From Bdellovibrionia bacterium (GTDB lineage Bacteria; Bdellovibrionota; Bdellovibrionia; Bdellovibrionales; JAGQZY01): a DNA stretch of 64,000 nucleotides. Shown here piece after piece: positions 29,665 through 33,942 of the stretch. Numbering within the stretch: the first letter of the stretch is position 1; the number at the start of each line of letters is the position of its first letter. The stretch spans positions 868,001 to 932,000 of the forward strand of contig JAUHWH010000001.1 of NCBI GenBank assembly GCA_030424715.1. The letters are read 5' to 3'. Both the position numbers and the translations under genes were made by a program. Below the pieces are notes generated by a model. The model saw nothing but the letters and a program-made list of their open reading frames with translations, was not told the origin of the DNA and did no database searches.

Positions 29665-32600
29665 ATGAATGGTGAAGTGATGAACCGTGCCGTCGAACTT
29701 GCGACGAAATGGCAACAAGTGGCGACCCTTAAGCTTTCTGATTTTGAAAATACTTTTCATAGCAAAATGCAAAAGCTTTTGAACAACCCAATTGACAAAA
29801 TCTTTTTGATCGAGCTGATGGATCAAAGTTTTCGCAGTCACGATGTGTCGCGGGTCGAAGATCAGATTGACTACTTGTTCTCGAAGTACGGCATGGCCAC
29901 TTTCTTTACGAGCTCTGAGCGTTTTTTGGTTTTTTTATTTCGCCATGCGGGAACATACATTCCTCAAATTTCTATTCCCTTATTTGTTGAGAACATCCGG
30001 CAAGATACCAATCGGGTGGTTTTGCCCGCTGATGATAAGCAGTTGAACAAGCATTTGAAGCAACGGCGCTCCAATAACACGCGAGTGAATGTGAATCTTA
30101 TCGGCGAGGTTGTTCTGGGTGAGGCAGAGGCTCAGGGGCGCATCGATAAATACATGAAGGCTCTTGAGAATCCGAACATAGACTATCTCTCAATTAAAAT
30201 TTCTACGGTCTACTCACAGATCAACCCGTTGGCCTTTGACCAAACCGTTGAAGACATTGTCCCCCGTATTCAAAAAATCTACAAGCAAGCCAAAAAACAC
30301 AAGTTTAAAAATCGCGACGGTGTTGAGTCTGAGAAATTCGTAAATCTCGATATGGAGGAATATCGAGACCTTTCAATCACTGTAGAGGCCTTTAAAAAAG
30401 CGCTCGAGGATCCAGAGTTGTTCGACTACCATGCCGGTATCGTTTTGCAGGCCTATCTTCCGGACGCCCATCTTTGGCAACAAAATCTAACCGAGTGGGC
30501 CAAAAAAAGAGTCGCGGCGGGGGGGGCTCCCATTAAAGTGCGTTTGGTCAAGGGAGCGAACCATGAAATGGAAAAAACAGAGGCCTCTCACCGCGGGTGG
30601 AGGCTTGCCACCTACACTGATAAAATTGACACCGACAGTAACTACAAAATCATGGCTACTTACGGGCTCCTTCCTGAAAACGTCAAAGCGGTGCATCTCG
30701 GTGCTGCTTCTCACAATTTGTTTGAACTCGCCTACGCCTTAGAGTTGGCGACGGAAAACCAGGTGTTGCCATACTTTTCCATCGAAATGTTGGAGGGGAT
30801 GAGCGAGGCGGCCCGTGCGGCCATTGCTGATGTGTCCGGCCAAAATGTGATTCTCTACGCCCCCATCGCGGGCAAGGAGCAGTTCACCAATGCCATTGCC
30901 TACCTTGTGCGTCGTCTCGATGAGAACACCAGCGAAGACAACTTCATCCGTTACTCTTTTGGACTCACTGTCGATAGCCCGGAGTGGTCAATGTTGCGTG
31001 AGAAGTTTATTCAGTCTTTCGACAACTGTGAGGGACTTTTCGTTGGGCAAAAGAGAAAGCAAAATCGCTTGGATGAAAATTGGGACAATTTCCAGGGTGG
31101 CACCTTTCATACTTATCGTTTTGAAAACGAACCCGACACTGACTTTATCCTCGAGGCCAATCGAAAATGGGCCCACAAAATTTGCGAGCGATGGAAGAAA
31201 GCCCCAGGGGATGATTTGCCCACAGTCCCTGTTGTGGTCGGTGGCAAAGACCTTACTGGTGATCGAGAGGTCGTTCGACGCATAGATAAGTCCCAGCTCA
31301 AAGAAGAAGTCTATTGCGGCCAATATGCTCGTGCCACCGCCGAGGATTTAAAAACAGCGGTTGATGTCGCTAGCGAAGACCCGGATCGATGGAGAAGTCT
31401 ATCTCGTCGCCAACGCCATGAGATTTTGTCAAACGTGGCCAACGAGGTGCGGAGTCGTCGGGGAGACTTGATCGGTGTTGCTGCAGCAGAGGTTGGTAAA
31501 GTTTTTACAGAAACCGATGTGGAAGTGAGTGAAGCTGTGGACTTTGTGGAGTATTACTCCGAGAGCACACGCTATTTTGAATCTCTAAAAAACATCCGGT
31601 TTCGGGGGAAGGGCGTTGGTTTAGTGACCCCCCCTTGGAACTTCCCCATTGCCATCCCTCTTGGGGGAGTGGCAGCCTCTCTTGCGGCCGGCAACACGGT
31701 GATTATTAAACCAGCTTCAGATGCCGTTCTCTGTGCCTATCAAATGTGCCTTTGCTTTTGGAATGCGGGCGTCAGTAAAAACACTCTCCAGTTCGTGCCT
31801 TGCCCGGGCTCCATGGCTGAAGAGTATCTCATCAAAAATGACAAAATTGATTTTGTGATATTAACAGGGGGCGAATCGACTGCCCAAAAAATGTTGAAAG
31901 CACGGCCCAGTCTTTTTCTGTCGGCAGAGACCGGGGGTAAAGATGCAACTATCGTCACGGCGATGGCCGATCGAGAACAGGCTATAAAAAATGTGGTTCA
32001 TTCTGCGTTTTCCAATAGTGGTCAAAAGTGCTCAGCCACGTCATTATTGGTGCTGGAGAATGAGGTGTATTTCGATCGTAAGTTCCAAGAAGCTTTGGTC
32101 GATGCGGCCCAGAGTTTATCTGTGGGTTCAGTGTGGGACTTAAAAAATAAGATCGGTACACTGGCTGGTCCTGTTTCTGGAGAGCTCAAGCACGCTCTAG
32201 AGAATTTGGAAGGTGGCGAAAGTTGGGTATTGAAGCCAGACTATGCCGACGAGAATGAATACATGCTTAAGCCGAGTATCAAATGGGGAGTCAGGGAGGG
32301 GAGCTTTTGCCATATGACAGAGCTCTTTGGCCCTTGTTTGTCGGTCATGCGAGCTGATGACCTAGAGCATGCGGTGCGGATCGTGAACAGCACGGGGTAC
32401 GGCCTAACCTCTGGTATCGAATCTTTGGATGAGCGTGAGGTCGACTACTGGAGAAAAAATATTCGTGCTGGCAATTTGTACATCAACAGAGGAACCACTG
32501 GCGCGATTGTCTTGCGGCAGCCCTTTGGTGGCCTAGGTAAGTCAGCGATTGGTTCTGGCCGTAAAGCGGGGATCCACAATTACATCACCCAATTTATGGA

Positions 32601-33252
32601 GTTCGAAGAGGTCCGTCGCCCCAATAATGATGAGCAAAGATCCAGTAAATTGGCCAAGCTGGCCAGCCGTTGGGACACGGACAGTCGCTTCGCCTCCTAT
32701 TCTGATGATATTGCGAAGTTGCAGGCGGCTTTGCAGAGTTATATGCAAAACAAAGAAAAAGAGTTCTCAGTTGAACGTGACTTTTTTAAGTTGCGAGGTG
32801 AAGACAATATTTTTCGATATCTAAAGCTTAACAGCGTCGCCATTCGAGTGTGTGAGGGGGATGGTCTGTTTGACTCCATGGCCCGGATTTTGGCGGCAAA
32901 AGTCTGTGGGGTTCAAGTGCGCGTGAGTTTAGAGAGCGAGATGATGGACACGGTGTCGCAGTTTCTGTTTCGCTATTCCCCGAAAATTCTTGGCGATGGT
33001 GACATTATTAAGCGTGAATCAGAGAGTGACTTTTGTCGTTGCTTTGCCCAGGTGGACCGCATCATGTATTCCGACGCCAGCAAGATTTCTGACACTATTT
33101 ATGAGAGCGCAGCTCAAGAGCTAAAATTTATCGTTCGGAACCCACCCTTGATGGAAGGGCGACTGGAGCTGCTCAATTTCCATGAGGAGCAGTCGATTTC
33201 TCACAGTTATCATAGGTATGGGAACTTAGGGGCTCGAGGTATACAGAGCTAA
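29665..33252 (+). CDS. putA: Bifunctional proline dehydrogenase / P5C dehydrogenase PutA
   Basis: 1195 residues. An N-terminal region without ribbon-helix-helix DNA-binding domain is followed by the FAD proline dehydrogenase barrel (about 150-470; VLQAYLPDA, RLVKGANHEMEK). The aldehyde dehydrogenase domain (about 530-980) has TPPWNFPIAIP, catalytic Glu755 (SAETGGKD) and Cys789 (NSGQKCSAT). The last 200 residues are a further region of unknown type. Such enzymes oxidise proline to glutamate with P5C channelled internally. Lacking the DNA-binding domain, it should not autoregulate its gene. It converges with the histone-fold gene by 4 nt. Confidence 0.96.
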   Translation: MNGEVMNRAVELATKWQQVATLKLSDFENTFHSKMQKLLNNPIDKIFLIELMDQSFRSHDVSRVEDQIDYLFSKYGMATFFTSSERFLVFLFRHAGTYIPQISIPLFVENIRQDTNRVVLPADDKQLNKHLKQRRSNNTRVNVNLIGEVVLGEAEAQGRIDKYMKALENPNIDYLSIKISTVYSQINPLAFDQTVEDIVPRIQKIYKQAKKHKFKNRDGVESEKFVNLDMEEYRDLSITVEAFKKALEDPELFDYHAGIVLQAYLPDAHLWQQNLTEWAKKRVAAGGAPIKVRLVKGANHEMEKTEASHRGWRLATYTDKIDTDSNYKIMATYGLLPENVKAVHLGAASHNLFELAYALELATENQVLPYFSIEMLEGMSEAARAAIADVSGQNVILYAPIAGKEQFTNAIAYLVRRLDENTSEDNFIRYSFGLTVDSPEWSMLREKFIQSFDNCEGLFVGQKRKQNRLDENWDNFQGGTFHTYRFENEPDTDFILEANRKWAHKICERWKKAPGDDLPTVPVVVGGKDLTGDREVVRRIDKSQLKEEVYCGQYARATAEDLKTAVDVASEDPDRWRSLSRRQRHEILSNVANEVRSRRGDLIGVAAAEVGKVFTETDVEVSEAVDFVEYYSESTRYFESLKNIRFRGKGVGLVTPPWNFPIAIPLGGVAASLAAGNTVIIKPASDAVLCAYQMCLCFWNAGVSKNTLQFVPCPGSMAEEYLIKNDKIDFVILTGGESTAQKMLKARPSLFLSAETGGKDATIVTAMADREQAIKNVVHSAFSNSGQKCSATSLLVLENEVYFDRKFQEALVDAAQSLSVGSVWDLKNKIGTLAGPVSGELKHALENLEGGESWVLKPDYADENEYMLKPSIKWGVREGSFCHMTELFGPCLSVMRADDLEHAVRIVNSTGYGLTSGIESLDEREVDYWRKNIRAGNLYINRGTTGAIVLRQPFGGLGKSAIGSGRKAGIHNYITQFMEFEEVRRPNNDEQRSSKLAKLASRWDTDSRFASYSDDIAKLQAALQSYMQNKEKEFSVERDFFKLRGEDNIFRYLKLNSVAIRVCEGDGLFDSMARILAAKVCGVQVRVSLESEMMDTVSQFLFRYSPKILGDGDIIKRESESDFCRCFAQVDRIMYSDASKISDTIYESAAQELKFIVRNPPLMEGRLELLNFHEEQSISHSYHRYGNLGARGIQS

Positions 33253-33755
33253 ATATTAAGATTGAGTTTGTCGAGAAACTTCAAGTCACTTTCCATGACG
33301 GTCCGGCGGCCGTCTTCTCGTGCATTGTCGATGGCTTGCATGGCGACATGGCGCAGGTGATCAGACAACGCAGACATCACAGATGCGGAAGTATTGAATT
33401 CAGACTGCTCGCTAACAAAATCTTTAAAACGAGAGGCGATCACTAGAATATCGCCACCTTTTGAAACTTGTTTGTTTGAAGGTTTTGAATACATTTGCGG
33501 AATGATCTTTTTTCGTCGTGGTGGTTCGGTCTTACCATCTTTAACATCACTTTTCTCCGGCGCTTGTTCGCGAATGGCTCCCGCACTTTTGTGTCGCGCG
33601 GCCGGTATATGCTGATCAAAACAGGGGACGCTGCAAAAGGTGTATCCTGTGCGCTTCGTGTTGCATGTCGAAACACTGCAAACATAATAGTCTTCAGTAA
33701 AGTTAATGCTTTTTTTACAGGTACTACACTTTTTCCACTCTTGATCCGCTGACAT
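33249..33755 (-). CDS. Zinc-finger plus histone-fold protein
   Basis: 168 residues from ATG 33755, with GAGG 5 nt upstream; ATG 33785 gives a longer form. Residues 10-55 have C10-x2-C13, C26-x4-C31, C41-x3-C45 and H49/H55, a HIT/MYND-like zinc-finger spacing. Residues 60-100 are charged linker. Residues about 103-163 match a histone fold: VIASRFKDFV (helix 1), ASVMSALSDHLRHVAMQAID (helix 2) and EDGRRTVMESDLKFL (L2 loop plus helix 3), parallel to archaeal HMfB. Likely a small DNA-binding or nucleoid protein; zinc could mediate dimer or partner contacts. Confidence 0.82.
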   Translation of the reverse strand: MSADQEWKKCSTCKKSINFTEDYYVCSVSTCNTKRTGYTFCSVPCFDQHIPAARHKSAGAIREQAPEKSDVKDGKTEPPRRKKIIPQMYSKPSNKQVSKGGDILVIASRFKDFVSEQSEFNTSASVMSALSDHLRHVAMQAIDNAREDGRRTVMESDLKFLDKLNLNI

Positions 33756-33942
33756 CATCACCTCGATGGGTTCGAAAGTAACCATTATTCAGCAAAATGT
33801 CCAGCCTGGGGTGTTAACTCAAATCAGCTGGGAACTTTTTACCTGACGACACAGGTATTGGGGGTGTCACGGGTCGACTCACAAGGGCCTTCCTTGGGCC
33901 GGCGAAGCCCATTGCTGAGCCCGTTAGATAGAGAAGTGTCTA

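Follow-up and report, generated by a model that had tools for sequence, protein, structure and literature searches.

The window, a stretch of 64,000 nucleotides from a Bdellovibrionia genome, carries on its reverse strand a gene whose product fits the published ZZ-histone class, and so is of a kind already known. The features of the gene are listed below, together with one further histone gene of the same genome.

33249-33755, reverse strand: ZZ-histone gene, 168 amino acids (open frame and translation)
33759-33764, reverse strand: ribosome-binding site GAGGTG, read from the sequence, with its GAGG 5 nt before the ATG at 33755
33558-33737, reverse strand: N-terminal zinc finger, probably ZZ-type, residues 7-66 (ligand conservation and fold match)
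33453-33557, reverse strand: disordered linker, residues 67-101 (low pLDDT, variable among relatives)
33501-33518, reverse strand: linker motif RRKKII, residues 80-85, the window form of the family motif R-R-[IV]-[IV]
33267-33452, reverse strand: C-terminal alpha3-type histone fold, residues 102-163 (sequence search, family profile, model and superposition)
G000:C13:268163-268354, reverse strand: L003, third histone of the window genome (nearest match the face-to-face histone HLp)

The gene and its two domains

Translation probably begins at the ATG at 33755 (MSADQ) and not at an in-frame upstream ATG at 33785, since the former follows the GAGGTG site and the starts of the relatives lie at about the same place. 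An internal start at Met88 of the window gene was considered and rejected, as this codon has no ribosome site. The stop of the gene overlaps that of a convergent gene at 29665-33252 (1195 residues), which by eye we take to be a proline/P5C dehydrogenase of the PutA type; the overlap showed no notable structure, and a promoter and terminator scan around the ZZ-histone gene found nothing. Purifying selection is strong on the finger and the histone fold, with dN/dS of about 0.01-0.05 for both domains in most scorable pairs of close relatives, and weaker on the linker, where the value was about 0.13-0.24 in most pairs.

The closest solved relative of the histone half is the Bdellovibrio histone HBb and not the archaeal histone HMfB. 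When we searched the window protein against solved structures using phmmer, HBb was matched at E 2.1e-8 and HMfB only at E 1, and the family profile built from 76 sequences gave 4.1e-19 and 0.02, respectively. The AlphaFold model of the full protein (mean pLDDT 84) has helices at residues 107-117 and 124-147 and a short one at 155-158 (block pLDDT about 91-98), and superposes on HBb with an rmsd of 1.1-1.5 over 58-63 residues (Z 7.9-8.7). The third helix is broken in the model, where 155-158 is followed by 160-163; in nucleosomal histones of the archaeal HMf type this helix is long, at about 10 residues. The sequence-only reading had placed a histone fold at the C-terminus, aligned with HMfB along all three helices, and had called for a fold prediction of the monomer and a search against histones. 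Both were carried out and bear out the fold; the RRTV L2 loop (R150-V153) is present as described, while HBb, not HMfB, is the closest template, and to speak of all three helices of HMfB was generous, given that members of the alpha3 family, this protein included, have a short third helix. The score of the window protein with the Pfam archaeal histone model lies under the cut-off, so automatic annotation may miss the ZZ-histone gene. In a tree of the histone half, based on a short alignment, the window falls in a 19-row set of ZZ-histone folds with support 97.

The DNA-contact residues of HBb are N22, R57, S9, T53, T8, S24, K10, K12, K52 and K16 (PMC11317129). In our alignment they correspond to N121, S156, S108, T152, A107, S123, R109, K111, R151 and S115 of the window protein, respectively; the side chain is identical or K/R-equivalent at 7 of the 10 positions, the exceptions being A107, S115 and S156. 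Position 156 is Arg in 40 of the 43 aligned sequences of the order and Ser in the window protein. Since the equivalents of HBb R57 and K16 are lost, the grip on DNA may be weaker.

The finger contains all eight ligands, C10, C13, C26, C31, C41, C45, H49 and H55, spaced C-x2-C-x12-C-x4-C-x9-C-x3-C-x3-H-x5-H, and the cross-brace-type spacing proposed earlier from eight Cys/His is conserved in the aligned relatives. In the alignment of the order, which has 43 full-length sequences when that of the window is counted, seven ligands never vary and C41 is kept in 41 and replaced by Asp in two; L050 and L076 carry Asp instead of this ligand. Across finger domains of any architecture, 83 of 83 distinct ones retain all eight when Asp is accepted at C41. 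The assignment of the ligands to C4 and C2H2 sites follows the published ZZ-histone class. In a tree of the finger half, again from a short alignment, the window lies in a 21-row set that includes 20 ZZ histones (support 95).

Sequence searches with Pfam and with a profile against solved structures named no family for the finger, and its label comes from a model of residues 1-68 (pLDDT 89). In Foldseek, the best match of this model was the p62 ZZ domain 5yph, with a probability of 0.96 but an E value of 0.086, followed by MYND domains at 0.28-0.51. VIA gave Z 4.4-4.9 to chains of RSC, Nbr1 and p62, a span that widens to about 4-4.9 with CBP, and only Z 3.6 to the HIT finger of yeast Bcd1. MYND and HIT fingers probably share with this finger a cross-brace pattern ending in C-x3-C-x3-H, but they gave lower fold scores than ZZ domains and no Pfam match among the families listed, and the earlier description of a HIT/MYND-like finger gained less support than the ZZ label. 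ZZ-type appears to be the best label, although the match scores are modest and fall short of proof.

In the linker, the block mean pLDDT is 47-67 over residues 71-110, and residues 85-98 are under 50. The conserved spot of ZZ-histone linkers is the basic-hydrophobic motif, whose pattern was found in 53 of 76 of them versus 6.2 expected by shuffling.

Fused and separate forms among relatives

The window genome, which belongs to family f1 of the same order as the Bdellovibrio relatives, contains three histone-fold genes: the ZZ histone, a separate HBb-type counterpart (L002), and L003, which has the lysine-rich N-terminal tail MAKKKKKKVATKKRATAKKK. To call the ZZ histone a second, regulated histone was thus an undercount, and nothing observed here speaks for the regulation. 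With the window genome counted, 45 of 120 genomes of the order have the finger gene (44 of 119 relatives), and in 43 of the 45 it has a histone part, G012 and G070 being without it; the same-genus genome G001 and many f8 genomes have no ZZ histone. Across the phylum, a finger-only profile matches 174 of 369 genomes, in single copy in all but one. No gene neighbourhood is common to the whole order including the window, neighbours being shared only within small clades, and no relatives were found in the plasmid or phage records searched. The viral contig L157 (IMGVR_UViG_3300009111_000005) encodes only a distant histone fold, with 26% identity to residues 86-158.

The 36 loci that we read fall into three builds: the ZZ histone; a ZZ-only protein of about 70-80 residues that stops at the domain (G012, G070, G271, and genera g124 and g125); and a ZZ-tail protein of about 100-135 residues without histone fold (L198-L209, L217, L218 and L220). 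The finger is therefore a separable module. All 15 usable ZZ-tail proteins carry a C-terminal [IVL][IVL]R[RK] motif 2-7 residues from the stop (0.3 in shuffles), and because of this conservation sequencing errors are unlikely to be the cause of these forms. This motif is similar to that of the ZZ-histone linker, and one may guess that the two do the same job. At L214 (G202:C104), the ZZ-histone frame becomes methyltransferase-like where the histone fold would begin, through a contig error or a fusion.

In 13 ZZ-tail genomes the separate histone was read (L233-L245); each has one, and most are of the ZZ-histone type. The separate histones of f26 end in VMDRDF or VMERDF and are mixed among the ZZ-histone folds in the tree, in which the HBb-type L002 of the window genome lies apart from them. 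Genus g168 contains the fused form in G352, where no further histone is present, as well as the split form in G353. That free histones arose solely by strict fission of ZZ histones was considered, but the 60-column trees are too poorly resolved to show it.

Eleven genomes, comprising all eight f22 genomes examined together with G346, G352 and G357, show an internal ATG in the fused gene. It lies 9-22 codons ahead of the histone fold and is preceded, at a distance of 4-16 nt, by a word resembling a ribosome site (background 8.6%).

L215, L253-L259, L264, L219/L128, L272/L149 and L103: loci with the internal ATG and the ribosome-site-like word

The residues after the internal ATG resemble the N-terminus of free histones, and judging from these sequence features the ZZ-histone gene could possibly yield a free histone as a second product. 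A separate histone was found in 0 of the 11 genomes with the internal start versus 10 of the 14 without it (Fisher p 5e-4, rising to 0.02 if f22 is taken as a single case), a correlation over few lineages in which f22 is one genus and some genomes are incomplete.

Six genomes of genus g125 have a ZZ-only protein and no detectable histone. This genus refutes the proposition that a histone is retained wherever a ZZ-only protein occurs; the job of the finger does not always need a histone, and in g125 the finger must do something by itself. The ZZ-only genes of g125 adjoin a conserved run of membrane-protein genes. At L188-L196 (family f14, g124/g125) these presumably encode, judged by eye, a large polytopic membrane protein with ExbB/ExbD-like proteins downstream.

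In six related genomes (L071, L109, L116, L124, L127 and L144), the start of the ZZ-histone gene lies 8-48 nt beyond flgD. The operon at this place is fliK-flgD-Flagellar_put-flgE, with Flagellar_put and flgE further downstream of the ZZ gene; the contigs of L116 and L127 end after the ZZ gene. In three f8 relatives flgD and Flagellar_put are 0-2 nt apart, and in the window genome flgD is followed by flgE. Since the six belong to a single clade, the position represents one event kept over several species.

A proposed adaptor role and its alternatives

Based on these observations, we suggest, with a probability of roughly 60%, that the ZZ histone is an adaptor whose finger recruits a putative partner to DNA, and not a bulk packager. 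The HBb-like alpha3 histone fold would dimerise and touch the DNA backbone without sequence specificity, and a flexible linker would join it to a ZZ-type finger that probably binds two zinc ions. Through its histone half the protein would settle on DNA coated with histones, either by itself or paired with a free histone in a mixed dimer; the finger together with the basic-hydrophobic linker motif would bind a protein partner and bring it to the nucleoid. The adaptor role is supported by the free-standing ZZ-only and ZZ-tail fingers, the separate histone kept by split forms, its absence where the internal start is found, and the recurrent linker and C-terminal motifs. It also agrees with the match to HBb in fold and sequence, the retained DNA contacts, the complete ligand sets, and the low abundance or expression of the ZZ histone in B. 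bacteriovorus (PMC11390915). Against it stand the patchy distribution of the gene, unlike that of a core chromatin factor, the finger of g125 without a histone, and the replacement of HBb DNA contacts by S156 and S115.

The main rival account, to which we give a distinctly smaller but real chance, regards the ZZ histone as a plain minor nucleoid protein, a low-abundance DNA bender with no partner in which the finger only makes the fold more stable or provides further contacts with DNA. K14 and R35 of the finger are conserved in the alignment and the linker is basic, so these parts could touch DNA, and the histone half retains most of its DNA-contact residues; however, a free-standing finger of 70 amino acids and ZZ-tail proteins without histone fold would be unexpected of a mere extension. 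The finger might otherwise read histone tails or protein N-termini, as eukaryotic ZZ domains do (p62, HERC2, PRT1), with the basic tail of a further histone in the cell as its target. The best fold matches are indeed ZZ domains, several of them solved with N-terminal or H3-tail peptides, and the same genome encodes the tailed L003; but the binding-pocket residues of eukaryotic ZZ domains are not conserved in ZZ histones and a second histone occurs in only half of ZZ-histone proteomes (Schwab 2024, PMC11390915), while a third histone-fold match, possibly tailed, is found in few other genomes of the order, and we consider such a reader improbable. We think it more improbable still that the protein is a flagellar or motility regulator sitting on DNA by its histone fold: the position after flgD in the flagellar operon of six genomes speaks for it, whereas that position is limited to one clade and no neighbourhood is shared over the order, window included.

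The adaptor role can be extended, tentatively and with some doubt, to the proposal that the finger works as a chromatin adaptor in its own right, joined to a histone in any of three interchangeable ways: by fusion, as a separate protein with the hydrophobic-basic C-terminal motif beside a free histone, or through an internal start by which one gene yields both the fused protein and the free histone. If so, bacterial chromatin would have a dedicated, titratable recruiting subunit. Bacterial histones have been recognised as chromatin proteins only recently, and what the present analysis adds is that relatives show the finger and the histone fold as separate proteins too, a hint that the finger acts as an adaptor and tethers something to DNA covered with histones. 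With the finger a separable module under strong constraint, occurring in fused, split and internally started forms, its purpose becomes a testable question.

Comparison with known systems

The name ZZ histone, used in the sequence-only reading, is that of a published class (PMC11390915), described as an N-terminal C4 + C2H2 finger, a linker and a C-terminal histone with ligands C10, C13, C26, C31, C41, C43, H49 and H55 (Schwab 2024, PMC11390915). Seven of the eight ligand positions of the window protein are identical to the published numbering (C10, C13, C26, C31, C41, H49 and H55), and C45 stands against the published C43/C53, which is probably a misprint because all aligned relatives have C-x3-C. 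The window protein shares the bacterial-dimer-like alpha3 fold of the class with its short third helix, but it has S156 where the class has a conserved Arg adjoining the final Asp of R-x-T-x4-D. The ZZ histone of B. bacteriovorus is probably Bd3044. Hocher 2023 describes two histones in B. bacteriovorus, of which Bd3044 is longer than Bd0055, and places Bd3044 in 37% of Bdellovibrionota genomes. Deletion of Bd3044 is given as lethal in a review (PMC11318664), while the available part of the primary paper mentions failed deletions for bd0055 only; the patchy distribution of the gene argues against general essentiality.

Eukaryotic ZZ domains (p62, HERC2, CBP/p300 and Nbr1) appear alike in predicted fold and in the paired-ligand two-zinc arrangement, although Pfam and profile searches detected no sequence homology to the window finger. 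With HBb, or Bd0055 (bacterial dimer histone; 8cmp, 8fvx, 9ezz, 9f0e), the window protein shares the histone fold at about 33% identity, the R-[KR]-T-x4-D motif and most DNA-contact residues. Unlike HBb-type bacterial dimer histones it is not a single-domain protein: HBb is abundant and has no finger or linker, whereas the window protein carries both.
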